Shown here piece by piece: positions 44,176 to 63,541 of a DNA stretch of 64,000 nucleotides. Origin of the DNA: Acinetobacter sp. XH1741. GTDB taxonomy: Bacteria; Pseudomonadota; Gammaproteobacteria; Pseudomonadales; Moraxellaceae. The translations under genes and the position numbers were made by a program. Every line of letters starts with the position of its first letter. Position 1 is the stretch's first letter. The notes below the pieces were generated by a model, which made no database searches, was not told where the DNA came from, and worked only from the letters and a program-made list of their open reading frames with translations. The stretch spans positions 62,001 through 126,000 of the forward strand of contig NZ_CP157429.1 of assembly GCF_041021895.1 (NCBI RefSeq). Direction: 5' to 3'.

Positions 44176-47100
44176 TTAAACAATTAACAAATCTTTCTCG
44201 ATGTCATTTTCCGCACTCATTTCAGATTCGTCATCTACCCACACTTTGTGTTCTACATCTTGAATTAAGCTACTCATTCCATGTGTAGGTTTTATGCCCA
44301 TTGCATCAAGTTTTTCCTTTAATGACATAATCATATTTTCACGTTCAATGAACCAACTCGATGCAAAGCATCTCCAGAATGTCCATCCTGCGCGTTCTAA
44401 AGCACGTTGACGAGTCATGTCATCATGCCATTGTTCTGGCCCATGATAGCTATCACCATCACATTCAACAGCCAAACGCTGATCACCATCTGACTCAACG
44501 ACTAAATCGATTCGATAGCTTCCAACCTTAACCTGTGGAGTAACTGTGTAACCCATTTCATGGAGTGTCGTAAATACAGATTTTTCAAACTCCGATTCAC
44601 ACAAATCTAATTTTGCTTCAAATGATGCTTTTTGATCTTCTTGCAAATCATAAAAATGATTGAGTAAATTCAGCCTTAGATCTTTTGGAGATATATGATC
44701 ACGACTCACGGAATGGACGAGATACATCCGTTCACGAGCACGGCTTGCAGCCACGTTAAATCTCTGTTCATGATCGGATCGACTCAAAGCATGACAATTC
44801 TGAGGATCTGCTACCATAGATAAGAAAATAATATCTCTTTCTGCACCCTGAAATGCTGAAGCATCCCCACAAGCAAATTGAACTTGGGTAAGAGTCCCTG
44901 CACCAAATTCATTCAAAGCTTCTGATTGAATGAACTCAGCCTGCGCCGGTCCCAACAATGAGATCACACCGATTGATCTATTTGCGTATCGTTCATCTTT
45001 AAGAAGAAGTTTCATTTCCTCAATAATTGCTTTCGCTTCTATTCGATTAATATGTTTGCTATTTTTAGATTCTCTATACCCCTGCGGTGTATAAATTGCG
45101 ACTAAAGCTGGACTTAACTGCTCAGATTTCTTCGATAATCGCATTGGCTTAATACGGTTACCATAAAAGTTTTTATTGCTGTAACTAATGATCGCAGGAT
45201 GACAGCGGAAATGCTCTAGAAGCATCACACTTGACTCATAGATAGAAGAAGCCATGTCGTATAAAGACATATCTGGTGTTAAATATGCAGCATGTGGCTG
45301 ACCATGTAGATAACGATTTCTTAATACATCAATTTGAGCACTTGCTAGACCGACATTACTCGGAGAAACTTGTTTATTATCCCCCACTACTAATAATTTT
45401 TTAGCACGCATTAAAACAGGTAATACGTCAATTGATGATTGTGATGCCTCATCCACAATCACTAAGTCAAAGAGGCCTAATTCAGCAGGCATAGATTCAG
45501 ATACCTGAAGATGTGACATGACCCAGCAAGGAATAGCTGCTGTTGCCTCTTTAAGGGCTACTTGAGCATCTTTTCTATAACGTGGAGCATTCTTACCTGT
45601 CCCTTTTCCATAGTGTTGTACAGCAATTTTATAACGCTGTAATGCAACTAAAATTTTGTCTGAGGCATTTTCCTTTAATGCCAGCCATGTCTTGTTTGCT
45701 GCCAATTGAGCGTAATTTTGAGATAGATTCTTCTCGTGAATACGACGGTGCTCATACAAATTTTCAATTTGACTTGTATTACTGATGGCTATTACAAAAA
45801 TCTCAAGACGTTTCCATTCCCAAGCCTCTAGCAATGTATTACGTAATACAGGATCTTCAATTTCTTCAGCGTACGGAACTTCCAGAATATGTTTACTAAG
45901 AATCAAAGCATTTGTTTTACTCAATCTAATACTGGCGGATTTAACTCTTTCAAAATCTTCTGTTAGATCTTTTAAATGTGATAATTTTTTTAATAGATCA
46001 GCATAATCTCCAAGTTCACTTTCATGTAATGAATCGGAATCAATCTGAGATACAATTTTTTTTAACTGATTTGATATTTTATTACCAAACTCTGATAAAT
46101 AAAGGATTTGATCAGCCAGTTGTTGTTGATAGACTTCTAAATTAAATATTTTTAACTTCTGCCCTAACAATTGAATCAAGTCATCAATATTTTTAGGTAA
46201 TCCGTAGAAATCAAAAGATTTAGCTCTCTTAAAAGCTTTTAAATAATTCGTATTAAATAGATCCAAATATTTATTTTTCAAATCTAGGCATTTTTGGGTT
46301 CTACTGATGAGCTGCGTGAACTCTTTTAATATTTCATCGATATTACGATTATTTAACTCAATTAAAGGAATGTCTAATTGTGCTGCAATACTATTCCATT
46401 TGCTCATAAAGATGTTAAGAGTCTGCTTTCTATCAAGATATTCTTTAAGTCTTTTCCATTCATCTGATGTATCAGGATATTTTCCAGAAACTTTAATTGA
46501 CTTAAAAAGGTCTTGTAATTCAGCAGTACCAAAATGATACCAATTAAATGGCTTACCTGTATCAACAGCACGTTGAACAGCTTGATATTCTTTTGAGTTT
46601 GGTTGTATCTCAAAATTCAGCTCTATGGGATCAATTAGTAGCGTTTTCCTGTATTCCAATAAAGGCTGAACTTCTTGAATAAGGTTACTATAGATATCAA
46701 GTTCCATAGCCTTATCTTCTGCATTTATCTTCTTGAAATAGCTCAATAACCATGGTTCTGCTTGATCAAGAACAAAGTTTAGATCTTCTAGATAAATCTT
46801 CAACCAATCTCTTAGCTCATTAATTTCTGATTCAGAAATAGTTTCCTTGAAATTATGTAGGTCATTTTGCTTTAAGAATTCCTCAATCTCATCTTTTTCT
46901 TTTAAGAACTCACTTAATTTCTTCAGGCTCGCCGAATCTAACAGCTTTTCAGGAGCTGGTAGAGGTCCATAATTTATGTATGGTAAGTTTGTACCTATTT
47001 TCTTCCTTGAGTCTCTCAATTGAATCAACTCAATCTGGGAAAAAGGAAACTGGTCTTTTTCCTCCAAAGTTAATTGGTCGGTAAACCATTCGCAGGATAC

Positions 47101-48915
47101 TCTACTTTCTAATACCGTTTTCACGATATCCATAGGTAATTTTTTATTACCATCTACTTCAATATTCTGATAATGCTTTTCTGCAAAGTTATATATTTCT
47201 CGATCAATCAAAGCCATTTCATGATGGTTATGATCTATTTGATGTTTTAGAACTTCGATCGTTTTTCGAACTTCTGCAACATTCATTTGGGTAATTTTTT
47301 GCACAATCAAATCGATTGAAGATTCAAGCTGATTTTTACTTTCTTTGCTTGAACCAATGCGACTGACTACCAAAGGCTTTAATTCATCAGGAATCTTTTC
47401 ATGTACTGTTTTAAGGACATGTGACTGCTGTGCAGTTACCAGTACTTTTTTACCATTCGCCAAATAGTGACAGATAATATTGGCAATACTATGTGTTTTA
47501 CCTGTACCTGGTGGACCTTGCACCACTACACCACTGCTGATTAGCAGATTCTGGACAATAGTAATTTGTTCTTTGTTATAAGGCAGCGGGAAATAAAGCT
47601 CTTCAACTTTTGATCCGAATCCCTCAGTACCAGAACGCCCTCTAAAACTATAAGTCTCTTTTTGATTAATATCGCTTTTTAATTCTGTCACTAACGATAA
47701 AGGTTGTTCAGGTATAGCCACTGAAGGGTCATTAAGTTTAGTTTTTAATAACTCAATGTCATCGCTTAAAATAGAATTTCTTTTAGGACGACTAAACAGT
47801 ACTGATGTTAATGTCACCGTTAGATTTTTGGATGGTATAGCCCTATTTTCTGCCTCAACAATTGCTCCTTTTGAAAAAATATTCGCGACGAAGGCATTAA
47901 CTATATCAGAGTAAGTTTCCCCTTCAAATAGGCGTAATGAGCGACCATTATTTAAGTTTTCTTTTAAGGTTACTTTTACTTGTCCTGAAGTAGGCAGATC
48001 ATCCTCTAATAAGATGGCATCCATTTCTATATTGGCACGTGTATCTTTGGCACCTACACGTATTAATCCATTTTTTTCTATCTCCATTTCTAACGGGATA
48101 GTAATAAGAGGATATGAGTAAGATTTTTGAGTCGTTGGAAGTACCCAGTCAACTAAGCCAAAGCCTGCAACAATTTCTTCACCATCGCCTGTTCCACCTA
48201 AATTAATCGCGGTATTCCATGAGAATAATTTATCGTAAACAACAATAGATTTTTTAATCTCATCGTTATTTTGTTTCCAATCTTTCCAAATATTTTGATA
48301 ACTTTCGAATTCTTTGAATAGCTTCTGAAGTAGGTCAATTTTAGTAATCAAATCACATGCCACGCTACTGTAGGGCAAACGGAATTGATGAACTCCTTTA
48401 AAAAATACAATCTTATTTAAACTAGAAAAATTAACAGTGGGTTCTTTTTCGGCATCAACATGAATATAGGAAGAGAGTATTTGAGATGGTTTCGGCATCG
48501 ATTGAAGCTGTAATCGTTCAATTTGAAACCACCAATCGTCATCATTCAGAATTTTTAAGCCACGAAGTTTTTCTAGATCATGAGAATAAAATCTATTACC
48601 ACTCATTTCATATTGAATTTTTTGAGTATCCTCAGCTTGATGAGATACATAATCCAACAATTGAATCAGTTTATTTTTAACAATATTATTTAATTCAAGT
48701 TCAGAGTTCATCATTGGTCTTTCTAAATTTTTAACTGACGGGATTATAGCTAAAGACCAGCAAAAGGCTTCATTTTGTGAAAATATATCTTGATTTTGAT
48801 ATAAAAAAGCATTCACTTCTTTCTTTTCAATACCAAGAGTTTTAGCAATTTCTCTAGCAGTAAGTTTGGGCTGTTTAACCAAAATAGCTGTTATTAAATC
48901 CTTCATGTGATTCAT
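44176..48915 (-). CDS. BREX-linked SF1 helicase with N-terminal HTH and C-terminal PD-(D/E)XK-like nuclease
   Basis: 1579 residues. A winged HTH (KLTAREIAKTLGIEKKEVNAFLY, 17-39) is followed by a long unrecognised region. The UPF1-like SF1 helicase core has GPPGTGKTHS (467-476), LVIVDEASQSS, LLVVGDNKQVSPS, FRCHPAI, FQGAERDIIFLS and FNVAASRARERMYLV, with a coiled-coil-rich insertion between motifs I and II. The C-terminal domain RIDLVVES...LAVECDGDSYHG (Asp1470, Glu1484, Asp1486) resembles Vsr/DUF559 endonucleases. It is the last gene of the BREX operon, 54 bp after brxL, and visibly more AT-rich than brxC, pglZ and brxL, suggesting separate acquisition. Helicase-nuclease fusions are known as stand-alone defence proteins (Hhe- and Mokosh-like); this one is not a core type 1 BREX gene. 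Confidence 0.85.
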   Translation of the reverse strand: MNHMKDLITAILVKQPKLTAREIAKTLGIEKKEVNAFLYQNQDIFSQNEAFCWSLAIIPSVKNLERPMMNSELELNNIVKNKLIQLLDYVSHQAEDTQKIQYEMSGNRFYSHDLEKLRGLKILNDDDWWFQIERLQLQSMPKPSQILSSYIHVDAEKEPTVNFSSLNKIVFFKGVHQFRLPYSSVACDLITKIDLLQKLFKEFESYQNIWKDWKQNNDEIKKSIVVYDKLFSWNTAINLGGTGDGEEIVAGFGLVDWVLPTTQKSYSYPLITIPLEMEIEKNGLIRVGAKDTRANIEMDAILLEDDLPTSGQVKVTLKENLNNGRSLRLFEGETYSDIVNAFVANIFSKGAIVEAENRAIPSKNLTVTLTSVLFSRPKRNSILSDDIELLKTKLNDPSVAIPEQPLSLVTELKSDINQKETYSFRGRSGTEGFGSKVEELYFPLPYNKEQITIVQNLLISSGVVVQGPPGTGKTHSIANIICHYLANGKKVLVTAQQSHVLKTVHEKIPDELKPLVVSRIGSSKESKNQLESSIDLIVQKITQMNVAEVRKTIEVLKHQIDHNHHEMALIDREIYNFAEKHYQNIEVDGNKKLPMDIVKTVLESRVSCEWFTDQLTLEEKDQFPFSQIELIQLRDSRKKIGTNLPYINYGPLPAPEKLLDSASLKKLSEFLKEKDEIEEFLKQNDLHNFKETISESEINELRDWLKIYLEDLNFVLDQAEPWLLSYFKKINAEDKAMELDIYSNLIQEVQPLLEYRKTLLIDPIELNFEIQPNSKEYQAVQRAVDTGKPFNWYHFGTAELQDLFKSIKVSGKYPDTSDEWKRLKEYLDRKQTLNIFMSKWNSIAAQLDIPLIELNNRNIDEILKEFTQLISRTQKCLDLKNKYLDLFNTNYLKAFKRAKSFDFYGLPKNIDDLIQLLGQKLKIFNLEVYQQQLADQILYLSEFGNKISNQLKKIVSQIDSDSLHESELGDYADLLKKLSHLKDLTEDFERVKSASIRLSKTNALILSKHILEVPYAEEIEDPVLRNTLLEAWEWKRLEIFVIAISNTSQIENLYEHRRIHEKNLSQNYAQLAANKTWLALKENASDKILVALQRYKIAVQHYGKGTGKNAPRYRKDAQVALKEATAAIPCWVMSHLQVSESMPAELGLFDLVIVDEASQSSIDVLPVLMRAKKLLVVGDNKQVSPSNVGLASAQIDVLRNRYLHGQPHAAYLTPDMSLYDMASSIYESSVMLLEHFRCHPAIISYSNKNFYGNRIKPMRLSKKSEQLSPALVAIYTPQGYRESKNSKHINRIEAKAIIEEMKLLLKDERYANRSIGVISLLGPAQAEFIQSEALNEFGAGTLTQVQFACGDASAFQGAERDIIFLSMVADPQNCHALSRSDHEQRFNVAASRARERMYLVHSVSRDHISPKDLRLNLLNHFYDLQEDQKASFEAKLDLCESEFEKSVFTTLHEMGYTVTPQVKVGSYRIDLVVESDGDQRLAVECDGDSYHGPEQWHDDMTRQRALERAGWTFWRCFASSWFIERENMIMSLKEKLDAMGIKPTHGMSSLIQDVEHKVWVDDESEMSAENDIEKDLLIV

Positions 48916-48969: not shown

Positions 48970-51009
48970 TCAACCCACACCCAGAGCTTTAAATACCGCA
49001 TCCACCGGATCTGCATAAAAGCTGGTCTGGAACTTGGTAAACAGTTCTACAGGAATCGTTGGGATATCTGCCGCACTACTCATTGGCAAAGCAACCTTCT
49101 TGGCACCCGCATCAAAAGCAACTTGCAGACATTCGGCAATACTTTCCACCGGTGTCACAGAACCACCCAAGCTTATATCACCCAGTACCACCATCTGACT
49201 TTGTACCGATCGTCCTAACAGGCCAGAAGCGAAAGCTACTAAACTTGGCAGAGCAAGATGACTGAGTGGTCCGGTGTTCTGTAATTCAACCACATGTAAG
49301 TGGAAGTCATGTTCCATCACCTTACTGCCACCCGAGATTCGAGATGCATTGGCCTTGAAGTAGTCAAATGCGACCTTGACCTGCTCCTTGGCACTGCTTG
49401 AATTCCATAAGCCTGATGTCGCCAGCTTTCCTGAACCTTTGGTGACTTGAAGTTCTAAGCGGTATAACCCTGGCATGCCTTTATTACTGAGCCCGATGGT
49501 ATATAAGAAACCTGGCTTGGCTGGACCTTCGGGAATCAGTCCACCTCCACCCTGCTCTTTGACTGAAACAAAGTGCTCTTCAAGCGTGTCATTATCGATG
49601 TAGCTGAAATGCACATCATAGAATTCCATGCCACCAATTTTTTTCAGCTGTTCTTTGACCCGACGACGTACCTGCAGGGCATATTCCAGACACTGGCGTA
49701 CATCTTCTTTATTAAACTGACCGTGTGGGTAGAGCAACTTCATCAATCCGGAAACCGTCTTGCGAACGGCGATCACATCACGTTGATTCAGGTTGTTGCC
49801 GAGTTTGAAGTACTTCTCAATGGCATCTGCAAAGCTACGCTTACGCATTTCCCGGAAGAACTCAGCTAGATAATCAACGATCAATCCATAACGGTTGGTG
49901 AAGAACTCCGGGCGCATCTTCGGAATTTCCCAGCCGGGGATATAAGCATGAAAACGATCGAAGAATGCCGAATCGATCATGGCTTCAGGGAAAGGTGCCA
50001 ATAGATGGCTGGTTTTGACCAGGGATTCCACGCTTTGGTTGATATTACCCACAAAAACCATTGAAGCAGAGGCTTCCATCTGTTCGCGGCCACGGGCAAA
50101 AGACCCTGAGGCCATGTAATCTTTCATGATCTGTACGCCATCTTTGTCCTTAAAGGAAATACCGGCGACTTCATCAAAGGCTACCACATCCCATAAGCCA
50201 ACCAGACCAATACGGCGGCTACTCATGTTATAGAATAGGTTGGCGACAGTCGTTTGCCCACCGGAGACTAAAATACTATTCGGTGAACATTCTTTGTAAA
50301 TATGGCTTTTCCCGGTACCGCGTGGTCCCAGTTCACAAACGTTATAGTTATTTTCAACGAACGGAACCATACGTGCTAATAGCTGCCATTGCACGTCCTC
50401 TTTTAGCGAAGCCGGTTCCATGCCGATCGAACGGATTAAACTCTCGCGCCACTGATCAGTGCTTAATGCTGCTCTTCCACTGAAGAGTTCATCCATATTC
50501 ATATTCGGCATTTGAATCGGCTTGAGTAGGCTCACACCAAATGGAGAATTTGACTGTCCTTCATCAAAATAATAACTGAGTGTTGCAATCACCCAGATAC
50601 CACCAACGAGTAATTTTTCATACTCTTTGACGATGCCTGCCGAAATCTCAGCATCTTTAATACCTAGATTACTGAAAGAGGCTTCGTATTTGTCCTTACG
50701 CTCATTCAGCTTCACGGTAACTCGGTCAATGACCTTATAACTGCCACGTTCACGAACCAGGGATTTTACTTTCTCCGCTTCATCCGGGCGGACATAATTC
50801 TCTGCCAGAACGGTCTTTACGTTACGCAGCCCCTGTTCAATGATCTCAGGGTCATCCGAGGCACAGTAAATCCCCAATAGGTACTCGAGCACATAGACAG
50901 GGACATTGGCCCCTTCTTTGATCAGTTTAGTCAGATCCTTACGTACCACCCGCCCAGCAAAGTGTTCATTCAGCAGCTGATCCAGTTCTTTATCGTTAGC
51001 AGATTCCAT
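48970..51009 (-). CDS. brxL: BrxL, Lon-like AAA+ protein of BREX
   Basis: 679-residue BREX effector-type ATPase. AAA+ motifs are GPRGTGKSHIY (228-238) and VVAFDEVAGISFKDKDG. The C-terminal Lon-like domain is GPLSHLALPSLVAFASGLLG, VVLGDISLGGSVTPVESIAE, AGAKKVALPMSSAADI. The position equivalent to the catalytic Lys of Lon (in GLKEKL) reads IAECL by eye, so peptidase activity is doubtful; BrxL is known as a DNA-binding ring motor. It lies 29 bp after pglZ on the same transcript. Confidence 0.95.
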   Translation of the reverse strand: MESANDKELDQLLNEHFAGRVVRKDLTKLIKEGANVPVYVLEYLLGIYCASDDPEIIEQGLRNVKTVLAENYVRPDEAEKVKSLVRERGSYKVIDRVTVKLNERKDKYEASFSNLGIKDAEISAGIVKEYEKLLVGGIWVIATLSYYFDEGQSNSPFGVSLLKPIQMPNMNMDELFSGRAALSTDQWRESLIRSIGMEPASLKEDVQWQLLARMVPFVENNYNVCELGPRGTGKSHIYKECSPNSILVSGGQTTVANLFYNMSSRRIGLVGLWDVVAFDEVAGISFKDKDGVQIMKDYMASGSFARGREQMEASASMVFVGNINQSVESLVKTSHLLAPFPEAMIDSAFFDRFHAYIPGWEIPKMRPEFFTNRYGLIVDYLAEFFREMRKRSFADAIEKYFKLGNNLNQRDVIAVRKTVSGLMKLLYPHGQFNKEDVRQCLEYALQVRRRVKEQLKKIGGMEFYDVHFSYIDNDTLEEHFVSVKEQGGGGLIPEGPAKPGFLYTIGLSNKGMPGLYRLELQVTKGSGKLATSGLWNSSSAKEQVKVAFDYFKANASRISGGSKVMEHDFHLHVVELQNTGPLSHLALPSLVAFASGLLGRSVQSQMVVLGDISLGGSVTPVESIAECLQVAFDAGAKKVALPMSSAADIPTIPVELFTKFQTSFYADPVDAVFKALGVG

Positions 51010-51038: not shown

Positions 51039-53663
51039 TCAGAAGAAGTCATCGGTAAATGCCAGATCAATGCTGACCTTATAGCGCTGCATTTCGATAT
51101 TCAGGTCTTTGTCCTTCAGCACCAAGAAGTAATCTTTCTTACGGTCAAAATCAGTGCCAGACAAAGACAGTCTGACCTGTTTTACCCGTTCCGCAATAGA
51201 GTCGGTACTGCTATCAAAGGTCAGAGTTTCTTCACTGGAAACTTTGACATCCCCATCATAAATGGCAATCGACAGGGTTACTGGCATGACCAGTTCACTG
51301 ACAGCTTCAGTTTGCATCAAATCAAACTTCTGGATGTTATTGACCATCTTCAGCGTAGATTTGGTAGAAATGACCTCAACTTTACGCTTGGTTCGCTGTC
51401 CAGCCTTTTCACCACGTAGCTGTTTCACTGTCAGTACCGGCACCACAATTTCCTGAGGCATGATGCCGCCATGCACGAAACGTGAACCTCCTACAAAATG
51501 GAAACGGTTTGCCCCTTTTGGAATCCAGAAATCAGTCGCAGATAATGTACCTGCCGTAGCTTGGGTTGAACCTTTCCAGGCTTCTTTGCTCACTGGCAAA
51601 CCATGTCCGATCACATAACGCTTCTTGCTCTTCAATACATTGGCAGGTTTTTCAGTCAAGATAGAACGATCCGCAGATTCCAGTTTACTTTGCTGGAACA
51701 AGAACCCATGGTCAGCTGTGATCAACAGGGTAGAAATATTGAAATGCAGTAAGATTTTACGGCTTAGCTCGGTCAGCTCTTCAATGGCATGTTCCACGGC
51801 CATAAAAGTTTCTGATTCTGTCGAGACGCTGTCACCGCGTGCATCAATGACGTTATGATAAACATAAATCAGATCATGGTCTTTAAGTGCTTCACGGCCT
51901 TCATCACGCGACCAGCCTTTTACCGTTTCAGCGGTCACGGCTAGACCATTATAGGCTGCCAGAATTTTGGATCGTGCTGCAGTTCCTTTGCTGGACTGTC
52001 CATCTACTAAAACATCATCCCCTGCACTCTCTTTGTACTCCAAAGTCTGGTGTGGCAGTAATGAGGCCATGCCGAGTGTGGTATAACTTGGCACAACTCC
52101 CAGCTGTGAAGACAAAGTCGCTTCTGAATAACGCTTTTCATTGATACGATCACACACCTCTACTGCAGCTTCATAGCGGAAAGCATCACTGATGATCACT
52201 ACAATACGGCGTTTCGTTGCAGAACCCAGTAGGGGTCTGACATGGGTATCATAGAAGTTCTGCTGATTTGGGATATCTGCTATTTTCCAGACATTCAAGC
52301 GTTGTTCAGCTTCAATCCGCTCTCCCCAGTTGCGCGCCAGGTAATCGATAAACCAGTAGGAATAGCAATTTTCGATTTCTTCATCGAGTTTTTTCAGGAT
52401 ATCGACATGAGCTCGTTGTGAGGCTGTACTGTAGTGGCGATAGGTCATATCAAAGCGATACAACTCCTGCTCGTAGGCTTTATACAAGGCTTCACTGGAG
52501 TCGAAATAGAACCCGGAATCAAACTGCTGTCGCAGGCTGAACAGGTCAATGGCTGCCTGCAACGCTGTATAGACCGTGCGATATTTACGGCGTGTTGCAT
52601 CATCCTTATGTTTGGAAGCCCAATAGCCATCCAGACGGGTAGAAATAATCGTTCTGAAATGTTCCAGTTCAGCTTGGGTTGCTGCAGGGATATGACTGGC
52701 CAAATCAACAATAATCTTTTGTTCAATCACTTCAAAGGTCATGACATCGAGCAGCTGTTCCAGATCAAAAGCCCCGACCTTCTCCTGGATCCGCAGTGCA
52801 TTGGCCACGGTCTGGGAGAGTGTATCGAAGGTTGGGTAGTATTTGGAGCTGTCTCTCCAGCGTGACAAAAAGGCTCTAGCCGTCGCACGTGAACTGACAG
52901 ATGACATCACCAGTTCTTGAGCCCATAGCGGTATATCGCCCAGGCTTTCACAGAAACCTGTGCTCATCAACCGGATAAAGAACGTACCGAGCTTGAATGG
53001 TGCTTCCCCATTCAATTCTTCAACCGATGCTGGATAACCAATTTCCGTCTGTAATGCGGTAATTAAAGCTGGCACCAGTTGGAATTTTTCCAGTTCAGCA
53101 AAGGATTCCGGATTGACTTCCAGAGCCAGGTTCTGCTGTACCACTTCATCTGCCAGTGCCAGAACGATATGCATGAGTTCGACACTGTCAGCCTTGACCA
53201 CAGCTGCAATCATAGCCATGTCCAGATCCTGTGCATCTGCATCAGACTGGATATAGCGTTTTAAGGTGCTCAGACGGGCTTTGGCTTTGAGGAATTCTTC
53301 ACGTTTAGCCAGATGTTCTCTTAAACTTTGTTGCTGTAGCCCAAGCTCATTAAAGATAATCGAGAAACGATCGGCATAGAAACTGCGAGAATATAGCTTA
53401 ATGTCCAGTAGCCAGTCTTTTTCGGTTTCAGGCTCTGGACTTGGGAAATACAGCAAGTATTTACCCTGCTGATCCTCAAGTTCCAGTTTGAGCTTGATCG
53501 CCAAACTCGACTCTTCTGCCATATTTAGAATATGGACATCATTCAGCTTTAGGGCTTTGATTTCTTCAGTAAATGACTGTTCTGCATCGTACCAAAAGAC
53601 AATCCGATGCTGTTCAGTATAAAAGGCTTGTTCCAGACCTTGTTTTAGTTGATCTAAATTCAT
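51039..53663 (-). CDS. pglZ: PglZ, alkaline-phosphatase-superfamily protein of BREX
   Basis: Core BREX protein of 874 residues. The metal-site motif ISDAFRYE lies at 491-498 and TADHGFLF at 649-656, both typical of the PglZ domain. The N-terminal region is helical. The start codon overlaps the stop of the upstream 456-aa gene (ATGA). In BREX, PglZ works with PglX and BrxB/BrxC in methylation and phage exclusion. Confidence 0.96.
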   Translation of the reverse strand: MNLDQLKQGLEQAFYTEQHRIVFWYDAEQSFTEEIKALKLNDVHILNMAEESSLAIKLKLELEDQQGKYLLYFPSPEPETEKDWLLDIKLYSRSFYADRFSIIFNELGLQQQSLREHLAKREEFLKAKARLSTLKRYIQSDADAQDLDMAMIAAVVKADSVELMHIVLALADEVVQQNLALEVNPESFAELEKFQLVPALITALQTEIGYPASVEELNGEAPFKLGTFFIRLMSTGFCESLGDIPLWAQELVMSSVSSRATARAFLSRWRDSSKYYPTFDTLSQTVANALRIQEKVGAFDLEQLLDVMTFEVIEQKIIVDLASHIPAATQAELEHFRTIISTRLDGYWASKHKDDATRRKYRTVYTALQAAIDLFSLRQQFDSGFYFDSSEALYKAYEQELYRFDMTYRHYSTASQRAHVDILKKLDEEIENCYSYWFIDYLARNWGERIEAEQRLNVWKIADIPNQQNFYDTHVRPLLGSATKRRIVVIISDAFRYEAAVEVCDRINEKRYSEATLSSQLGVVPSYTTLGMASLLPHQTLEYKESAGDDVLVDGQSSKGTAARSKILAAYNGLAVTAETVKGWSRDEGREALKDHDLIYVYHNVIDARGDSVSTESETFMAVEHAIEELTELSRKILLHFNISTLLITADHGFLFQQSKLESADRSILTEKPANVLKSKKRYVIGHGLPVSKEAWKGSTQATAGTLSATDFWIPKGANRFHFVGGSRFVHGGIMPQEIVVPVLTVKQLRGEKAGQRTKRKVEVISTKSTLKMVNNIQKFDLMQTEAVSELVMPVTLSIAIYDGDVKVSSEETLTFDSSTDSIAERVKQVRLSLSGTDFDRKKDYFLVLKDKDLNIEMQRYKVSIDLAFTDDFF

Positions 53664-55030
53664 GGCTTACTATCACCCACAATGTCTTTAATTTCTTTAA
53701 CTTGGCCAATCATTTCTTTTAAGTTTTGAATTGAAGACACCCCCTCTTTTTGCTGCTCTACTTTTTGTTTGCTGGGTGGCATATATATGGTTTGCACAGA
53801 ATCCATAATTAACTTGTCTTGATTAGCAGTCTCTTTTAATTGTTCTGCATAAGAATTAACTGTAAGTGCAACTGCGGACTTAAATGCATACTCTTCCTGA
53901 AAGTTACGCTCTTTGGTGTATTGAGAAGTCGTAAAGAAAAACAATCCCAATACAGGCAAGGTTTTTATTGAATTTATTAAAAGCAACTGCCAGCTAATCG
54001 ATGCAGGATCAACTCCCCAAAATAGATAGACGATCCAAAAAGCGGATACTAGTGCTATAGTAGGAATACTCCATTTCCAAAATTTAATTGAATCTGTTAA
54101 TTCAGTTTTCCTTTGCTTAAACGTTTCAAACAGAGATGCACCAACTTCTCTACCTATTAGATCATCTAGATATTGATTCCGTTGTTCAAAGTATGCGTGT
54201 TTGCTCTCTACAAAGGTAAGCTTAGATTTGAAATCCTGTTTAAGAGTTTCAAAATCATTTTTTTGTTCTAAAATATTTTGCTCTATGTTCTCAAAAGTCG
54301 TTTTTAACGTTTGTAATTGTGCACGTGTCTCGATCAACAGTTGATCTGAATCCGCTTTTTTCTCTTCAGATGCCTGTAATAAAGAATTTATTTTTTCAAT
54401 TAAGACCGCAGCCTGACTCTGCAGATTAGTAATTTCTGATGAGTGATTTCGACTCGCAGTTACTAACGCCTCTATTTCACTTAATTCACTTCTTTTTACG
54501 GAAGTAAAAGAATCCAAATCATCTTTGCTAGTTTCTAGTACTTTCAACAAAGTCTCTAATCGTTGTGATGTGGCTTCTAGATGAGTAGAGACTAACTCGA
54601 TACGTTCTTTATCTTGCTGAACAGAGAGTTCCGAACTTCGAAAATATTTCCGTTTACTTTTCTCCCAAAACCCATTTATTGCCTGGTAATGAATTAAACG
54701 ATTAAGATGTAAAACCGCAGCAGGGAAATTTCGATTATTAATATTTTGTAAATAACCAGCTAGATCTTGATTTAAATCTGCACCACCATATTCATTTTGA
54801 AATTGATAACTATATGGTAAAGCTTTAGCAAATACGGTATCGATCTCTTCTTTAAATTGGTTGAAAACCTTATTAGATGCACTGAGAAATTCTTGTGCTG
54901 TATATTCACCAATCTGAACATTGCTTAGGTCTGATATATGAGAATGCTGTTGAGCAAGAATATTTGAAAGCCCGAGCGCATAATAAGCTTCAATATGTAT
55001 CTTTACCTGATCAATTTGAGCTTTATTCAT
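53660..55030 (-). CDS. Coiled-coil, two-TM membrane protein inside the BREX operon (unrecognised)
   Basis: 456 residues. The N-terminal helical part (1-130) is followed by a long predicted coiled coil (about 135-290; ELVSTHLEATSQRLETLLK, LLIETRAQLQTLKTTFENIE) and two hydrophobic helices (about 319-339 WSIPTIALVSAFWIVYLFWG and 347-368). A charged C-terminal tail follows. No enzymatic motif is seen. It overlaps both neighbours by ATGA (pglX stop and pglZ start), so it is translationally coupled within the operon. Base composition is more AT-rich than its neighbours. It is not one of the six core type 1 BREX genes; a membrane-anchoring or phage-sensing role would be inference. Confidence 0.8.
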   Translation of the reverse strand: MNKAQIDQVKIHIEAYYALGLSNILAQQHSHISDLSNVQIGEYTAQEFLSASNKVFNQFKEEIDTVFAKALPYSYQFQNEYGGADLNQDLAGYLQNINNRNFPAAVLHLNRLIHYQAINGFWEKSKRKYFRSSELSVQQDKERIELVSTHLEATSQRLETLLKVLETSKDDLDSFTSVKRSELSEIEALVTASRNHSSEITNLQSQAAVLIEKINSLLQASEEKKADSDQLLIETRAQLQTLKTTFENIEQNILEQKNDFETLKQDFKSKLTFVESKHAYFEQRNQYLDDLIGREVGASLFETFKQRKTELTDSIKFWKWSIPTIALVSAFWIVYLFWGVDPASISWQLLLINSIKTLPVLGLFFFTTSQYTKERNFQEEYAFKSAVALTVNSYAEQLKETANQDKLIMDSVQTIYMPPSKQKVEQQKEGVSSIQNLKEMIGQVKEIKDIVGDSKP

Positions 55031-58000
55031 TCTGTTTTATCACCCGTAATCGCTTTAACTTCAGCTAACAAGTCCCCAAACTTGCCGTAGTTTACTTTCA
55101 CCCCATCATCGAGATCTAACGTAATACGCTGATCGGCATAGTGACGTAATTTTTCTTCAAAAGTACTCAGTTCAGCCTGTTGCTTATGCAAGTCTTGCAG
55201 TTTTTTCTCGATACGTTTGATTTCAGCCGCAGAGTCACTGCTTTCTTTTGTTGTTTCCAGAGAATTAGCATAAGCAGCCATTTTGGAAATCAGCGGCATG
55301 ACGTATTCGGTACGCATACGCGCCAAAGTGCTTTCGTTATAGCGGTGCAAGTACACCAATGCCTGGAAAGCGCCTTGTTTACCACTGCTGAATAACCAGT
55401 AGATCGGGCGCTTTTTATAGGTCTGCATGTGGTCTTTATAAAACTTACTAGCAAGATAACGGCGGATCGTGTCTTCCGCTGTTTCGTTGGCTTTTTTGTC
55501 CAAGCTTTCTGCCAACCACTGCATATTGGCATCCAGTGTATCTTTACCCCACACTGCAGTTAAGAACTCTCGAATACGGTGCGTTGCATCGTCTTCAAAC
55601 CAGTGCATTTCAGTCAATGGAATAATGCCGTCAGCATCGGCTGGGAATTTCAGATAACGGTTGGCATCGAAGTCTTGATTGCCTGCATGGGCATAGATCA
55701 AACCTGGTTCATCTAAGCTATAACGTCCCATCATGCAGCCAAGTACATAAGACACTAAACGTTGGCTGTCTTTTTCACGGTCGGCACGGGTTAAAGTGAT
55801 TTGCTCATCAGGAACATCTGGCGTTAATTCATCCTGTAAACCATAAGCATCAATAAACAGCTTATTGTTTTCTTCTTCTAGACGTTTCATTTCTGCCACA
55901 GCGTCAGCATTTTGCTGTTGCCATGTGTTAAACGCTTGTTCTAGGTTTGACTGCTGCGTACGAATGATTGGGTTTTGAGTAAAGTCCCATGAGGTTTCGT
56001 ATACATTCCAGTCATCTCTTGCAAATTTAATCATCTCCTCTACATTTTCTCTTGCCTGATTTGAGGCTGAGAAAGGAACATAAGGCAATTGAGAGATTAC
56101 ACCTGCTGTTGTATTCATAGTAGGATTTATTATTATTTTCAAAAATTCTAGTACAGGTGAATTCATAAGTCCTATAATTTCAAGGAGTTCATTATTTCTA
56201 GCAAATAAACTATCAGCTGCCTGATCAAAAATATAACCATTATCCATATAACGTACACTAAATGTCCCAGAGCCAATCATTGACCAAGATATGCCATTTC
56301 TAAAATAATATTGAAGATTTTTTATTGTTCGTGTTGGGCTACCATATAATTTTTTTGCAAGCGCAAACATTTCTTCACCATCATTTTCCCAGTTAACTAA
56401 ATACTCATTATTTCCATACCATTTTCTAAATTCTCCACCTTTATTATACGGGAACCACTTTTTATTAGAATTTTTCGCATCTTCCCTATTTATAGAACCA
56501 AATGCCATTTTTTGATTGCTAACTTCTGCCCATCTTCTAATGAACTTATTATTATCATTTGTTGCCAACCCACGACGTGGTTCTGAAATCTCTCCTAAAA
56601 GCTTATTTCCAGAAAATAAATTTCGAGTCTGTATATTTACCCAATAAGCAATAGGACTACCAGGAATTTTCTTAAAATCATCTTGAATCGTAGAGTCAAA
56701 ACGATTAAGTCCTGATCTTAGTTCTGATTCTTTTTGATCCTGCCCTGTATCTACAAGTCTAAAAAATACTGGCTTAAATCCATTTATATGTTGCCCTTGC
56801 ATCACAAAAGCTGTTGTTTGTACGACTTCCCCTGATATTTCAGGAAATGCTCGAGCACCTAAATGTGCCATGGTTTGAATTGTACGATCTTGTAATAACT
56901 TTTCACGCATCGCTTCATAAGATGACAAGAACATCCAGCTTTGCATGGTTACCATACTGTTAAAACCACTTTCTTTACACCATCCAAAACCACGTTCAAT
57001 AAACATGGCAAATAGATCTGACTTGCTGTCAGGGAATTTCTTCTTGGCAAAATCTTTTAAGGCTGTATTCATGCCTTTGCCACCCATATACGGCGGATTC
57101 GCAATCACAGCATCATATTGCTTTGCTAATAAATTCGCTTGCTGCACTAAAGGTAATAACTCCTGTGCTGACTGCTGTGCAAAAATATCCCCTGACGCTA
57201 ATGCTATATTGAGCTTTGTTTCTAAATCAGGCAGCTTTTTAGCGAATACTTCAGGCACCTGAATCAAAGACCCAAAAGTTGAAGCATGTTCAAATAATTC
57301 TAGCAATTCTTTTAAATCCGCCTGCGCAATACCAGTGTTTGCCAAATCCTGACTCAATGCGTCTAAACGTTCAGGTTGGCTGTCTTGCAACGCAATAATA
57401 TTCAGCTTCGGTGGATTGCTAAATAAACGGCGGTCATCCTCACGCGCTTTCATCAGCAGTGCAAAACTGGCCAACTGTGCCGCACGGGTATCAATATCAA
57501 TGCCGTACAGGTTGTTTTCCAGAATCAAACGTGGAATATCACGGCTGCGGTAACCACGTTCTAAATAAATGGCTTTCAGGCAATCATAGGCTTCCACCAG
57601 AATATGCCCCGAACCACAGGCCGGATCTAGCACCGTAATGCTTTCAGGGTTTAAAGTATCGCCATCTTCACTAATACGAACATCAATCAGCTGTTTCAGC
57701 TGTGCATTGACCTCATCCGTTTGTTCAGCGGGTTGAATATAATATTCCCAATTATTGGCCAGCGTACTGTCAGGCTGTGCCATCATCCATAAACGGCCAA
57801 CACTGTTCTGTACCAGATATTTTACAATCCAGTTCGGGGTGAATAACTGTGTCGCGGCAGGAATGTCCTCACTCTTGACGACTTTACCAATCACCTGGTC
57901 TTTCTTTTCAGAAATATAGAACTGATACAGCCAGCCAATAATCTGTACATCCGACCAGTCTTCTTCTGGAATGCTGCTGACCAGATCACGGATCAAGGAA

Positions 58001-58560
58001 TCGGTTTTGGTGAGGTTATCCGGTAACAGCAACTCAGATTCATCAGAAACCTGTTCAAACAATAATGGCATGACCTGATTCAATGCATGACACTGAGCCA
58101 GTAACAGCTCTCGGTACAGCTCTTCGTCTTTATTGCCATCCAGCTTGAGTTCAGCCACACGGCTAGCATCTAAACCCGGTAAGTCAATATCCAGACACTC
58201 TTCCAGAATCTGCGGCAAGCCTGCACTGCCATCGGCACTGCTCAGTACACGACGACCATGATCCAGCAAGCCTTTGCATTCCATGTAGCGAATCGCACAA
58301 AGACGGTTAAACCAGCTATAAGCGATATAATCGATGGTCTGCTCAAAACTGCTGGTTTGAATGCGCTTGATCAGCTTTTCACGCGGTTTCATTACTGACA
58401 GGGGAAAAACCTGATCGCCAATCAGCAACAAGTCGCCTTTCTGCTCTGTTGGTAAAGTGCGGTCTGCGGTGATGCCGTATTTGGCCGACTGCTTGCGCAT
58501 GGCTGCGATAAAATCATTGCGTGCTTGCGGTGCGTATTTTTTAATATTACTGGTATTCAT
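55027..58560 (-). CDS. pglX: PglX, BREX adenine-specific DNA methyltransferase
   Basis: 1177-residue N6-adenine methyltransferase that marks host DNA and sets BREX specificity. The SAM-binding motif DPACGSG is at 312-318 and the catalytic NPPY at 488-491. The segment covering roughly residues 540-845 (bases about 56030-56950) contains the likely target-recognition domain and is markedly more AT-rich than both flanks, a mosaic that suggests exchange of specificity. It starts 46 bp after brxC and overlaps the next gene by ATGA. Confidence 0.96.
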   Translation of the reverse strand: MNTSNIKKYAPQARNDFIAAMRKQSAKYGITADRTLPTEQKGDLLLIGDQVFPLSVMKPREKLIKRIQTSSFEQTIDYIAYSWFNRLCAIRYMECKGLLDHGRRVLSSADGSAGLPQILEECLDIDLPGLDASRVAELKLDGNKDEELYRELLLAQCHALNQVMPLLFEQVSDESELLLPDNLTKTDSLIRDLVSSIPEEDWSDVQIIGWLYQFYISEKKDQVIGKVVKSEDIPAATQLFTPNWIVKYLVQNSVGRLWMMAQPDSTLANNWEYYIQPAEQTDEVNAQLKQLIDVRISEDGDTLNPESITVLDPACGSGHILVEAYDCLKAIYLERGYRSRDIPRLILENNLYGIDIDTRAAQLASFALLMKAREDDRRLFSNPPKLNIIALQDSQPERLDALSQDLANTGIAQADLKELLELFEHASTFGSLIQVPEVFAKKLPDLETKLNIALASGDIFAQQSAQELLPLVQQANLLAKQYDAVIANPPYMGGKGMNTALKDFAKKKFPDSKSDLFAMFIERGFGWCKESGFNSMVTMQSWMFLSSYEAMREKLLQDRTIQTMAHLGARAFPEISGEVVQTTAFVMQGQHINGFKPVFFRLVDTGQDQKESELRSGLNRFDSTIQDDFKKIPGSPIAYWVNIQTRNLFSGNKLLGEISEPRRGLATNDNNKFIRRWAEVSNQKMAFGSINREDAKNSNKKWFPYNKGGEFRKWYGNNEYLVNWENDGEEMFALAKKLYGSPTRTIKNLQYYFRNGISWSMIGSGTFSVRYMDNGYIFDQAADSLFARNNELLEIIGLMNSPVLEFLKIIINPTMNTTAGVISQLPYVPFSASNQARENVEEMIKFARDDWNVYETSWDFTQNPIIRTQQSNLEQAFNTWQQQNADAVAEMKRLEEENNKLFIDAYGLQDELTPDVPDEQITLTRADREKDSQRLVSYVLGCMMGRYSLDEPGLIYAHAGNQDFDANRYLKFPADADGIIPLTEMHWFEDDATHRIREFLTAVWGKDTLDANMQWLAESLDKKANETAEDTIRRYLASKFYKDHMQTYKKRPIYWLFSSGKQGAFQALVYLHRYNESTLARMRTEYVMPLISKMAAYANSLETTKESSDSAAEIKRIEKKLQDLHKQQAELSTFEEKLRHYADQRITLDLDDGVKVNYGKFGDLLAEVKAITGDKTE

Positions 58561-58606: not shown

Positions 58607-61600
58607 TTAGCGGATACGCACACGCTTTTTATCACTCACGATTTTTTTCAGTTCAGCTTTGAGTGCGTCTACAAACTGATCCACTGACTCTTCTGTTTCC
58701 AGATAGACACTGCTGGAGCTTTTGCTGTAAATGCTAGCAACATCAACTTCGACTACCGGTTTCGGTGGCACTACGGCTGTCACAGGCTGTACCGGACTCG
58801 CAGCAGGTGTTGATGTAACTGGGCTGGAGGTGGTTGCAGTGTTGGTTACACTCTCGGCTTTGCTCTGAGCCAGTTGTGCCGCTTTGGCCTGACGCTGGAT
58901 TTCCGCCTGAACTTCGCTCTCCAGCTCATATAAGGCTTCATCAAAACGCTCCACGGCGGTTTGGGTTTGCAGCATATAGATGGTGGACAGGCTAGTTTCC
59001 ACTTCAATATCCGTTTTCAGCAGTTGTAGTGGGCGTAATAGCTTGTTACTCAGCTCAGCGGTAGCGATGCCACTGTTTTTAATCTCGGCTTCTAACTGTT
59101 TGATCTTGTCATCAATTTGCTCTACCGCATGGCTACGCTTCTCACTCAACAGTCGCTCATTGACGCTTTCAACTGTGCGAACTAAATCAGCGATTTTATT
59201 TAACAGGCCGTAGGGCGATTCAAGGGTTGAAATATGATGTAATTCGGAGAGGGCTTTTTTAGCGAGCTCATCACTGCCCAGCGCCTGTTTGTTTTTCTCA
59301 AAATGACGTAAGGCCTGTTGCAGTTGTTGCCAGCTTGGCATCTGATTACTAAAGAATTCATGAATGTCACGATAATCTTCTTCCAGATCCAAATAGTCGT
59401 CCTTGTGATCAACCACGGCCTTAAAGAAATCGAAGCTGTCGCTATTCGCCAGCAGACGTTCCAAAGTCAGAATCAACTTTTCAATCACTTTCTTGCCTGG
59501 GAACTGTCCGACATCTGTTTTGCTTTTGTACGACTTAAAGTTGGCTAACCAGTTTTTAAAATGTTGGGTATAGAATTCAAATAGCTCTTTCTCTGTCGCT
59601 GGTCCCATAGCCGAGAATAGATCTTGGGTCAGTTGGCGTGCCTGTTTCAACACCTGATCATCAGTCTGGCGCTTTTTAATGATCGACACATCGCGTCGAC
59701 GGCGGCTGTTTTGTAAAGGCTCAAAGGCATCTTTTAACTGCAAGCTGCCACCATTTAACTGCAGTGAAATCCGCCCCATTGCCGCCAGCTGACCTACCAG
59801 CAATAAAATCTCGGCATCTGGCCAGCCATAAGGGCGTTTAGCAAAACGATCCACCACATCCGATACCAGAATACGTTCTGTACCTGTTGCCCGCAGCGAG
59901 ATGTACTGTTCCACTTCTTGTAGGGCTTTCGGATTCGTTTGACCACCATCCAGAGACAATCCGAGCTGCGCCATATCATCGACAGTCAAGACGGCGTTCA
60001 GTTCACGCCAGGCATCCTGCTGATAGACTTGCAAATAGCTCAGTTTGGTATAGGTATTTTCAAGCAGATAACGACACGCCTCATCCAGCTTGGTGGAAGG
60101 GCTAGAAGATGAAAGTTGTAGATGTTGACCCAAGGCATAACTTTCCGCATCTAGCAGCATTTCTTCAACCCGGGCACGCAGGCGTTTTTTACGCTCCTGA
60201 TTCTCACGGCCACGGTCTGCCAGGATACGGCTGATATCCGATTGGGTGCCATCATCATTTAAGCGGATGAATTTATTGGTTTTCAGCCAGGTGCGCAGTT
60301 CATTAAAGAACTGTTTATCGTCTGCCAGTTTAAACAGCACTTGTCCTTCGTCCTGAGTACTTTTACCAATACAGTAAGCTTCAGTGTAGAGGTTGTATTC
60401 CGTATCAAGCGGAGAAATAATTTCAACTTTCAAATCGCTCTCATACTTCCCATCCAGGCTATGGCTATCTAGGAAACGACCAATCTGATAGTCCATCTTG
60501 TTGGCTTGATGGCGGTATTTGTTCTGATCGCGCAGTAAATCTTTAAAGATCAGATTGGCTAACTCTTTATTTTCTTCTGAAGCAGCCAGATCAGTGGCTT
60601 TAATTTTGCGGGTGATATCGCGCTCTTCATTGGTGAGGAACAGGAACTCATCACCATTGCGGGTAATCAGGCTCTCTTTTTCCAGACGCAGCAGGCTTTC
60701 TTCAATACGCTTGCGTAATGCCAGCTTGTCTTCGTCAATTTTCTCAATCGACAAAGTCACCAGGTTATCCAAGGTCCCTTTGATGATATCGACATAGCGG
60801 ATCATAAACAGCGTGCGCAGCATCTGTACGTCAAAACTATCTAGGGTTTGATTCTGCCCTGCCTGGTCGATGGTGCGCTTCACTGCAGTATCCAGAAATC
60901 CTTCCACTGAGGTATAGAAGCGGTGGAAAGGAACCAGTGCACCGACTTCATCTGTAGCAATCGCATTCGCGGCCATCTGGAACGCATCCAGCATGGACCG
61001 TTCACCATAGGCCAAGTGTGCACCGGTCGCACCGACTTTACGGATTTCTTCAAATACTTTTTGCACCAACTGGAAATGGTACGGCGCAAAAGGATAGTTA
61101 TGGATAAAGCTGTCTGGACCCTCATAGTTGTTGAGTGTTGGGCCTGAACGGTCAAAGGTAATCTGGTTTTTTAAAATATCGCCCTTTTGCTCAAACACCG
61201 ATCTGAGCAATGCTTCTGCTTCCGGGGTTTTACGTAATAAACGTTTCTGGATGACTTCATCGGTATTGGAACTGGACAGTGATAAACGGGTTTTAAAACG
61301 CCCAGCAATCTTGGAGAAATCATTGGCTTTGGAAGAAGACATCTCACCTAGAACCGCGTCGATGTCCGCCTGTGAGGTGACGACAATCCAAGCACGGCCT
61401 TTACAGATCGTACCAAGGTTTTCAGTAATGGTCTGTAAAGTCAGCATCAAGCGGGTATCGCTGCCAATAAACTGCCCCACTTCATCCACCAGGAACAATA
61501 TCCGTTGCTGTGGTCCTTTGCTATCTAAGTATTCTTTCACCCACTGACAGAAGTTTTCGACCGAAACACTAAAGGTCTGCTCAGAATCCTCAAACCATTT

Positions 61601-62287
61601 ATGCGCAGCTTCAGCAGATAAGTTGAGGGCTTGGGAAATCGCGGTTTCGACATCATCCTGATAGAACTGATAGCCGTCACGCTCCTCTAGCCAGGACATA
61701 CCGCTGGATTCCTCAAACGCCTGTTTAAAGCGTTCGTAGACACCTTTCTGGCTCAGGTGACGTTCCATATGGGCAATATGTGGATGGTCAGCACTAAAAC
61801 CCTGATACTCGTTAAACACGCGTAAAAACACATTCAGGATCGGATTGCCATCATCATTGGAGCTGGCTTTACTGTCGATGTTAAACAGGATGACATCGGC
61901 ATGATGGCTGACGGCCTTGCCAATATCCGCACGGATAAACGCATCACGAATTTTGCTTTCATCAAAGAATTCTGCAGCACTGCGTTCGTTACCTTGCGCA
62001 TCGCGTGCCACTTTATTGGCCAGAATATACGACAAGGTTTTCAGGAAATGTGATTTACCTGAACCAAAGAAGCCTGAAATCCATACGCCGACACGGTTAG
62101 CAATCGAAGGATCGCTCAGGTCTGTGCCATAAGACTGGAAAAAGTCCCGAAAATGCTTTTCCAGTTCATTGGTGACCACATACTCATCGAGTTCCTGATA
62201 AACCGTGGTATTGTCATTCTGGTCTGCTTTTACGACCCCGTTAATTGCACGATCTAATGGCTTGTAAAAAAGCTCTTTAATATTCAT
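58607..62287 (-). CDS. brxC: BrxC, BREX P-loop ATPase
   Basis: Core BREX ATPase of about 1226 residues. Walker A GFFGSGKSHFLK lies near residue 72-83, and a Walker B-like ILFLVDEVGQFIG follows near residue 260. The long C-terminal part is helical and ends in an Ala/Pro/Thr-rich linker (TSSPVTSTPAASPVQP) plus a short tail domain. I use the ATG at 62287, with GGGGGA about 10 nt upstream; a TTG three codons earlier is the alternative. It is presumed to couple ATP hydrolysis to DNA surveillance with BrxB and PglZ. Confidence 0.96.
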   Translation of the reverse strand: MNIKELFYKPLDRAINGVVKADQNDNTTVYQELDEYVVTNELEKHFRDFFQSYGTDLSDPSIANRVGVWISGFFGSGKSHFLKTLSYILANKVARDAQGNERSAAEFFDESKIRDAFIRADIGKAVSHHADVILFNIDSKASSNDDGNPILNVFLRVFNEYQGFSADHPHIAHMERHLSQKGVYERFKQAFEESSGMSWLEERDGYQFYQDDVETAISQALNLSAEAAHKWFEDSEQTFSVSVENFCQWVKEYLDSKGPQQRILFLVDEVGQFIGSDTRLMLTLQTITENLGTICKGRAWIVVTSQADIDAVLGEMSSSKANDFSKIAGRFKTRLSLSSSNTDEVIQKRLLRKTPEAEALLRSVFEQKGDILKNQITFDRSGPTLNNYEGPDSFIHNYPFAPYHFQLVQKVFEEIRKVGATGAHLAYGERSMLDAFQMAANAIATDEVGALVPFHRFYTSVEGFLDTAVKRTIDQAGQNQTLDSFDVQMLRTLFMIRYVDIIKGTLDNLVTLSIEKIDEDKLALRKRIEESLLRLEKESLITRNGDEFLFLTNEERDITRKIKATDLAASEENKELANLIFKDLLRDQNKYRHQANKMDYQIGRFLDSHSLDGKYESDLKVEIISPLDTEYNLYTEAYCIGKSTQDEGQVLFKLADDKQFFNELRTWLKTNKFIRLNDDGTQSDISRILADRGRENQERKKRLRARVEEMLLDAESYALGQHLQLSSSSPSTKLDEACRYLLENTYTKLSYLQVYQQDAWRELNAVLTVDDMAQLGLSLDGGQTNPKALQEVEQYISLRATGTERILVSDVVDRFAKRPYGWPDAEILLLVGQLAAMGRISLQLNGGSLQLKDAFEPLQNSRRRRDVSIIKKRQTDDQVLKQARQLTQDLFSAMGPATEKELFEFYTQHFKNWLANFKSYKSKTDVGQFPGKKVIEKLILTLERLLANSDSFDFFKAVVDHKDDYLDLEEDYRDIHEFFSNQMPSWQQLQQALRHFEKNKQALGSDELAKKALSELHHISTLESPYGLLNKIADLVRTVESVNERLLSEKRSHAVEQIDDKIKQLEAEIKNSGIATAELSNKLLRPLQLLKTDIEVETSLSTIYMLQTQTAVERFDEALYELESEVQAEIQRQAKAAQLAQSKAESVTNTATTSSPVTSTPAASPVQPVTAVVPPKPVVEVDVASIYSKSSSSVYLETEESVDQFVDALKAELKKIVSDKKRVRIR

Positions 62288-62327
62288 CTCAATCAATTCC
62301 CCCGAATTCTTATTTCTATTTGCCGTG

Positions 62328-62903
62328 TTAAGGCACTAATCTGAATGCTCTGTAGTAATTGTTGCTTGGAATTTTTCCAAATAAACTCATGGCTTGACCA
62401 TCGTAATAACCTGGGTAAAACAGCACGACCGGCTTATGCCCCAGTAACGAATGTAAACTGTTCAATAAGTGATGGGCACGTAACAGTGGCCAAACCGAAC
62501 CTACCCCAGTCATCAACACAATATCTTGCGCATTGGTGGCATATTTACTCACCAGATAGGGCGCGAACTTATCCATATGCAGTGGGCCTTTCAGCGCTTT
62601 GAGCAGCGCCTCATCGCCTTTGTCTTTTTGCATTTGAATGGCTTTATCGATGAAGTTACGCTCAGCCAGATAATCCACCACGGCTTGCAGCAGGTTGATA
62701 TTCACCACCTTCAGCTGACTGTGTTTTTTCTCCAGCATCCCGTCTAGAAAATGCAGATATTCGCGCACTTTCAACTCATCTTCAGGTGCATAATCAAAAA
62801 TCCAGAAGCCAATTTCATTGCCCAGTCCTTGCCCGGTGAGAAACTCGGTGGAAAGAATTCGCTCTGGAATCTGGTTCAGACGCTCATGTATTTTTTGACT
62901 CAT
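62328..62903 (-). CDS. brxB: BrxB (DUF1788)
   Basis: 191-residue BREX core protein. The family signature is visible (IGFWIFDYAPEDELKVREYL, VLMTGVGSVWPLLRAHHLLN, PVVLFYPGYYDG). Length is normal. It lies 16 bp after brxA and about 40 bp before brxC. BrxB is needed for both methylation and defence in characterised type 1 systems, probably as an assembly factor; no enzymatic motif is seen. Confidence 0.95.
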   Translation of the reverse strand: MSQKIHERLNQIPERILSTEFLTGQGLGNEIGFWIFDYAPEDELKVREYLHFLDGMLEKKHSQLKVVNINLLQAVVDYLAERNFIDKAIQMQKDKGDEALLKALKGPLHMDKFAPYLVSKYATNAQDIVLMTGVGSVWPLLRAHHLLNSLHSLLGHKPVVLFYPGYYDGQAMSLFGKIPSNNYYRAFRLVP

Positions 62904-63531: not shown

Positions 63532-63541
63532 AGCCAATCTC

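Follow-up and report, generated by a model that had tools for sequence, protein, structure and literature searches.

In loci of the bacteriophage exclusion (BREX) system, GmrSD, PARIS-type and Schlafen genes have been argued to be auxiliary or suicidal back-ups (PMC12839542). In the accessible part of that study the catalogue of BREX back-up effectors consists of nucleases, and the word 'membrane' occurs once in its main text, in a reference title. According to the accessible passages of other reports, PARIS (AriA/AriB) lies within a BREX island of Salmonella (PMC12205998) and a GmrSD/BrxU type IV restriction gene is associated with the BREX of E. fergusonii. Here we describe an accessory coiled-coil gene located at 53660-55030 on the minus strand of a 64,000-nucleotide stretch of Acinetobacter sp. 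XH1741 (the window; contig NZ_CP157429.1, positions 62,001 to 126,000). The gene and its product are both called CC; the open reading frame begins with ATG and its 456 codons give a protein of 456 amino acids. Our analysis reveals that CC is an accessory gene and not a core subunit of BREX. It is exchangeable cargo, belonging to a membrane coiled-coil family which recurs in modification-type immune operons. We consider it about an even call that CC is an accessory, exchangeable and very probably anti-phage gene taken into a BREX slot of Acinetobacter plasmids, where a membrane-acting back-up effector would be its likeliest form. Its function as a back-up effector is suggested by the company of the gene and by the predicted anatomy of the protein.

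CC lies inside the core BREX operon, on the same (minus) strand as the BREX genes, between pglX (55027-58560), which encodes the BREX-1 adenine methyltransferase, and pglZ of type A (51039-53663). The start of CC overlaps the end of pglX by 4 bp (ATGA, 55027-55030) and its end overlaps the start of pglZ by another 4 bp (53660-53663). Both overlaps had been noticed in an earlier, sequence-only reading of the window, and they fit translational coupling as proposed there. That reading had regarded the gene as built into BREX. CC is indeed inside the operon and a membrane output is possible, but it is not a BREX component. The PglZ of the window is held by 141 Acinetobacter plasmid records while CC is held by 24 of them, so that it is missing from the majority of type 1 BREX operons in this lineage, and all 24 copies adjoin pglX and/or pglZ. 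Two other relatives of CC used as plasmid queries return 25 records each (25 and 20 rows listed), again 24 from Acinetobacter and one from Hymenobacter. The same junction has other occupants. A GmrSD-type gene, composed of GmrSD_N and GmrSD_C (Pfam), is found in 31 Acinetobacter records and adjoins pglX or pglZ in 30 of 30 among the matches listed. It overlaps pglZ by 4 bp as CC does, and therefore such overlaps do not prove that a gene is an essential part of the operon. In Acinetobacter WCHA55 (one record) the junction is occupied by a PDC-M25A/B ATPase pair. In eight of eight cargo-free records fetched, which were chosen because no other gene overlapped pglZ, the pglX-pglZ spacer is 43 bp long. 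Beside the 141 PglZ records, 24 are thus classed by CC, 31 by the GmrSD-type gene (counted alongside, not matched record by record), one by the ATPase pair and 20 by a spacer probe, with about 60 unclassed. In Azotobacter salinestris (H118; NZ_CP045303.1, 144200-145354) pglX is likewise touched by a gene related to the PDC-M25A ATPase of WCHA55, and use of the slot may therefore extend beyond Acinetobacter.

Comparison of seven of these operons shows that PglZ keeps 95-100% identity, whereas the identity of PglX drops as low as 32-59% in its most variable blocks. Whatever the slot contains, the variable (target-recognition) region of PglX is exchanged among Acinetobacter BREX operons that are otherwise much alike (window 55027-58560 compared with L047-L051 and L056). 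CC DNA is 95-100% identical across four records compared, even though one of them has a PglX whose identity is only 33% over a 100-column block within the variable region, which indicates that CC is not tied to one specificity. Varied slot contents together with near-constant PglZ and CC and a variable PglX lead us to regard the pglX-pglZ junction as a cargo slot and CC as one of its inserts; CC is exchangeable or absent there, as expected of an accessory gene. Two records show damaged or imperfect copies. An ISAba26 transposase lies inside the pglZ match of a BREX copy in NZ_CP061590.1 (40512-45823), whose CC match is in three pieces, and CP033532 has small gaps in pglX, CC and pglZ alike, which resemble sequencing errors.

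In the NEB394 BREX operon, as read from the sequence, CC is absent and the slot is empty. The accessible part of PMC9122589 reports that this operon in E. coli methylates 1024 of 1024 sites and restricts a lytic phage, restriction requiring each of the seven BREX genes; a working BREX without CC speaks against the view that CC is built into the system. The same result bears on another explanation, in which CC is a membrane tether that attaches to whatever the upstream gene encodes (PglX, HsdS or a type IIG enzyme) and keeps the modification/restriction complex at the membrane, the site of phage DNA entry. Besides the activity of the NEB394 system, the wide differences in the PglX variable region adjoining CC and the 117 of 141 PglZ records without a CC match (by subtraction) are difficult to reconcile with a tether. 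The positions of CC relatives in other operons, described below, are more favourable to it.

A total of 460 CC relatives at E<=1e-3 were found among 7994 candidates scored. In the 45 genome loci that carry a relative, a search seeded with the proteins of the window, over stretches of up to about 10 kb on each side, detected PglZ, BrxC or BrxL in none (0/45); since the seeds were the window's proteins and some contigs are short, distant BREX types could be missed. Relatives in genomes thus lie mostly outside BREX loci, an outcome which the sequence-only reading had itself named as refuting its view. A tree of 57 rows, from which L001 (the window's own copy), L005 (frame split), L044 (short) and L046 (distant) were left out, splits in two with support 98/89 (midpoint root, for drawing). 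Group A comprises 13 rows from Bacteroidota, nine of them behind an HsdS-family gene and two behind a type IIG enzyme. HsdM, HsdS and HsdR were identified by Pfam in L032 and the type IIG enzyme by PADLOC in L029, the remaining neighbours by clustering. An HsdR-family gene follows further downstream in six of the nine type I loci; L033 ends before it, and L039 and L045 show none in the stretch. CC relatives therefore sit directly 3' of a specificity or methylation gene in type I and type IIG operons. With gaps measured on mechanical open reading frames of at least 70 aa, a same-strand upstream gene lies within 50 bp in 10/13 rows of group A versus 3/27 of group B (Fisher p 7e-5, a guide only because the rows are related). 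Group B consists mostly of single genes with gaps on either side. The Acinetobacter CC belongs to it and, after its nearest rows, which have no context, the next ones are gammaproteobacterial loci. As the Acinetobacter protein falls in group B and the rows from restriction-modification (RM) operons in group A, BREX and RM operons probably acquired CC separately at the same position. Relatives at matching positions in other methylating operons, or alone, suggest that CC is probably a travelling back-up gene and not a core part of BREX.

The tether gains from this arrangement, because CC follows a specificity or methylation gene both in BREX and in 11/13 rows of group A, across three enzyme types. 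However, group B is mostly without a partner, and a tether accounts for the position in group A but neither for the stand-alone group nor for a working BREX free of CC. We therefore consider it unlikely. Another possibility is that CC is a passenger, that is, a general membrane protein which rides mobile elements, is coupled by chance and has no role in defence. CC is rare and patchy, being present in 1/175 genomes of the genus and 4/369 of the class (each count includes the genome of the window), and some neighbours of its relatives are ordinary genes, as a passenger would have it. But on either side of the main division of the tree the gene is placed behind modification genes, and defence-type neighbours occur in 6 of the 18 group B loci scanned (of 29), namely DarT in L006, an AAA_5/REase_II match in L013, GmrSD_N and SoFic in L014, HEC-05 in L019, a GajB-like helicase in L024 and a methylase plus a IIG match in L026. 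Moreover, CC DNA is 95-96% identical, with an intact, single-piece match, in records whose pglZ differs by about 8%, i.e. in two BREX backgrounds. A mere passenger is thus improbable. Matches to the PADLOC model 'mad3' beside L010 and L016 were rejected as defence neighbours (the one in L016 is an ABC-F-type protein by Pfam), and a weak SspA/DndA match in L004 was not counted.

The neighbours in type I loci point in the direction of back-up defence. Genes near CC include Schlafen/AlbA_2 (L032), Shedu SduA_C (L034), patatin (L042) and a weak SMC_N match (L035). Because the BREX slot is common to CC and a GmrSD-type gene, and Schlafen, Shedu and patatin genes lie near the type I relatives, the simplest reading is that of a back-up effector whose output is at the membrane. 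In Bacteroidota type I operons (L030, L032, L034, L035, L036 and L042) the stretch between hsdS and hsdR is itself a cargo region, in which the genes just named are accompanied by others. The constancy of CC beside varying neighbours in group A may be ascertainment, as CC served to find these loci. Behind hsdR comes a YgjP-like metallopeptidase, identified by Pfam in L032 and by clustering elsewhere. In both type IIG loci a protein of 531-537 aa is encoded shortly downstream of CC (L029:5440-7053 and L031:11469-13064), and the L029 protein has no Pfam or PADLOC match.

The predicted structure of the protein agrees with a membrane location. An AlphaFold2 model of full-length CC built on 90 aligned rows has a mean pLDDT of 80 and a pTM of 0.45, with a weakly predicted tail; residues 1-126 modelled alone reach a pLDDT of 94 and a pTM of 0.88. 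Residues 1-121 (54668-55030; all CC features are on the minus strand) are predicted to fold into a compact domain, helical apart from a small beta hairpin, and residues 132-295 (54146-54637) a single uninterrupted helix, which is followed by two long helices bearing the membrane segments. That the long helix forms a coiled coil is suggested by the absence of any proline or glycine in residues 132-290 and by a heptad power of 0.88 compared with 0.40 +/- 0.13 in shuffled sequences, none of 300 shuffles being as high. The best 19-residue hydropathy windows are 322-340 (membrane helix 1, 54011-54067) and 349-367 (membrane helix 2, 53930-53986). Hydropathy in one sequence is not decisive, since 79/500 shuffles have a best window at least as high as the second segment. 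In the 90-row alignment, which includes the window's CC, a hydropathy of 1.6 is reached by segment 1 in 90/90 rows and by segment 2 in 73/90, while the two membrane flanks reach it in 0/90. Mean Lys/Arg counts over these rows are 3.6 before the membrane pair, 0.2 in the loop and 3.1 after it. Heptad, hydropathy and charge patterns fit a cytosolic coiled coil with a membrane hairpin and both ends in the cytoplasm. The sequence-only reading had predicted a long coiled coil and two membrane helices; both are borne out by these analyses, with its coordinates correct to about five residues.

Conservation in the alignment peaks beside the membrane and not in the coiled coil. Identity at residues 275-310 and 370-420 is 81% and 73% among 57 protein-database rows, and 53% and 55% among 32 locus rows, while that of the coiled coil is 36% and 22%, well below the membrane flanks. 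These flanks contain two conserved juxtamembrane motifs, residues 284-310 (54101-54181) and 370-398 (53837-53923). Within membrane helix 2, N353 is kept in 86/90 rows, K356 in 87/90 and P359 in all 90. A plain anchor would hardly need such conserved flanks and helix positions, so the membrane part of CC probably acts. The Foldseek search proposed in the sequence-only reading returned no match at E<=0.001, either to a solved fold for CC or for the N-terminal domain (residues 1-126 model). CC stays below the cut-off of every Pfam, PADLOC and NCBIfam family, nuclease families included, and no model of PADLOC-DB 2.0.0 matches it.

The inner-membrane anatomy also raises the possibility of a superinfection-exclusion type of protein, in which CC alone would block entry of phage DNA at the inner membrane without killing the cell and would be merely co-transcribed with BREX. 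Stand-alone relatives agree with this, and so does a distant phage-borne relative beside helix-turn-helix (HTH) and integrase genes, which fits an effector equally well. However, such a protein leaves the placement of group A behind specificity genes unexplained, and a long cytosolic coiled coil like that of CC is unusual among superinfection-exclusion proteins. We regard this explanation as quite unlikely. The phage-borne relative was the only one in phage records; it is located in Riemerella phage GDF21 (L052, 5911-7233), is 24.5% identical and lies on the same strand as the HTH and integrase genes. A single-protein query of viral contigs found no CC relative, and a search of E. coli genomes with the DNA of an Enterobacter relative gave no match. 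Another distant relative, which resembles CC in its juxtamembrane pattern, is found in a genome of the class (L063:9257-10555, minus strand) in a stretch which includes a TnsD/TniQ gene; this suggests a wider superfamily and Tn7-like mobility.

How CC would work as a membrane-acting back-up effector can be proposed from these features. The protein would reside in the inner membrane with both termini in the cytoplasm, where its N-terminal domain may sense either a cue of infection or the disturbance of a partner. The coiled coil would oligomerise and relay the signal to the conserved membrane core (the juxtamembrane motifs together with N353, K356 and P359 in helix 2), which would perturb the membrane and stop the infected cell. 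CC would thereby act as a back-up once the DNA-targeting defence fails, and coupling to pglX would tie its dose to the modification enzyme. A more specific proposal, which we offer tentatively and as a possibility well below an even chance, is that the whole family are membrane sensor-effectors behind specificity genes (BREX, type I and type IIG) that read failure or inhibition of the system and depolarise the membrane. As part of this proposal, and with the same tentativeness, the family would give restriction-type immunity a back-up arm that acts at the membrane and not as a nuclease.

Several observations weigh against the back-up effector. The conserved membrane flanks are also compatible with a tether or partner-binding surface, for which such very conserved cytosolic flanks would be suitable, and no fold or family match backs a pore or any other effector. 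Clustering of the type I association on the tree is modest, as the label needs three changes and 33/500 shuffles among labelled rows need as few. The nearest protein relatives of CC (P0002, P0003, P0005 and P0008) come without genomic context. Among the remaining group B loci scanned, one has a weak methylase match (L041) and three have a recombinase or transposase, and 8/18 have nothing relevant or ordinary genes (PepA, NamZ, ABC-F).

The remainder of the operon is a type 1 BREX set which, with pglX and pglZ, flanks CC on both sides. On the minus strand are present brxL (48970-51009), brxC (58607-62296), brxB (62328-62903), brxA (62920-63558) and a brxR-like WYL regulator (63542-64000) which is cut by the end of the window. 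Directly 3' of brxL, also on the minus strand, lies a gene for a large SF1 helicase (44176-48915; AAA_11/AAA_12) with a C-terminal MTES_1575 REase domain. Its nearest PADLOC model is PDC-S37, followed by MkoA/MkoC models, and it is possibly a second accessory effector of this locus. The window is part of a contig of 156,898 bp in a genome of four contigs (3,995,851 bp), and its pglX, CC and pglZ show 100% DNA identity to plasmid p3ABAYE of A. baumannii AYE, which has a gene of similar length at the place of the helicase. A 26,140-bp BREX segment flanked by partial insertion sequences has been reported in 14/16 plasmids of the p3ABAYE lineage, and the accessible passages on this segment do not mention the CC gene (PMC9455709).

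The back-up genes of BREX loci that we found described are nuclease systems, and one that acts on the membrane would be a new variant. With a membrane protein in the BREX slot, and relatives of it behind the hsdS and type IIG genes of another phylum, layered immunity would come to include an output at the membrane. A simple search rule would follow, namely to inspect whichever gene comes immediately 3' of the one for specificity. The Acinetobacter plasmids provide a natural series, having nearly the same BREX core with four states of the slot. No description of the CC family was found in the open PMC literature, which omits most subscription papers and preprints, and the family is undescribed as far as the searchable literature and PADLOC-DB go. 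Among the references of PMC13092281 is a relevant preprint (Payne et al. 2024), whose subject is new defences embedded within immune systems.

Compared with known systems, CC resembles the back-up nucleases of PMC12839542 in genomic logic, both being second-line genes within core loci. However, as far as the accessible text shows, a nuclease domain is typical of those effectors, while CC matches none in Pfam, PADLOC or NCBIfam. PARIS and PDC-M25A/B are like CC accessory inside a BREX locus, PDC-M25 being in the very slot of CC, but they are ATPase-based two-gene systems whereas CC is a single gene with no ATPase match. PrrC, an NTPase-anticodon nuclease, is encoded between hsdS and hsdR. This position recalls the six of nine type I loci in which a CC relative has an HsdS-family gene upstream and an HsdR-family gene downstream, but the window's CC has no Pfam match to the NTPase or anticodon nuclease domains. 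The two-helix membrane effectors of cyclic oligonucleotide-based antiphage signalling systems (CBASS) and SLATT-type proteins have two membrane helices and a cytosolic part, and CC shares two membrane helices with them by prediction. Its motifs are unlike those known for these proteins. The window's CC has no Pfam match and Foldseek gave none at the threshold given above, while the 90-row Pfam scan listed 25 of 158 weakly matched families. Finally, the Acinetobacter GmrSD-type gene is a DUF262/DUF1524 nuclease, in contrast to CC, which has no nuclease domain and is predicted to be membrane-anchored. Yet the two share the pglX-pglZ junction, the 4-bp overlap with pglZ and a presence in only some copies of BREX.

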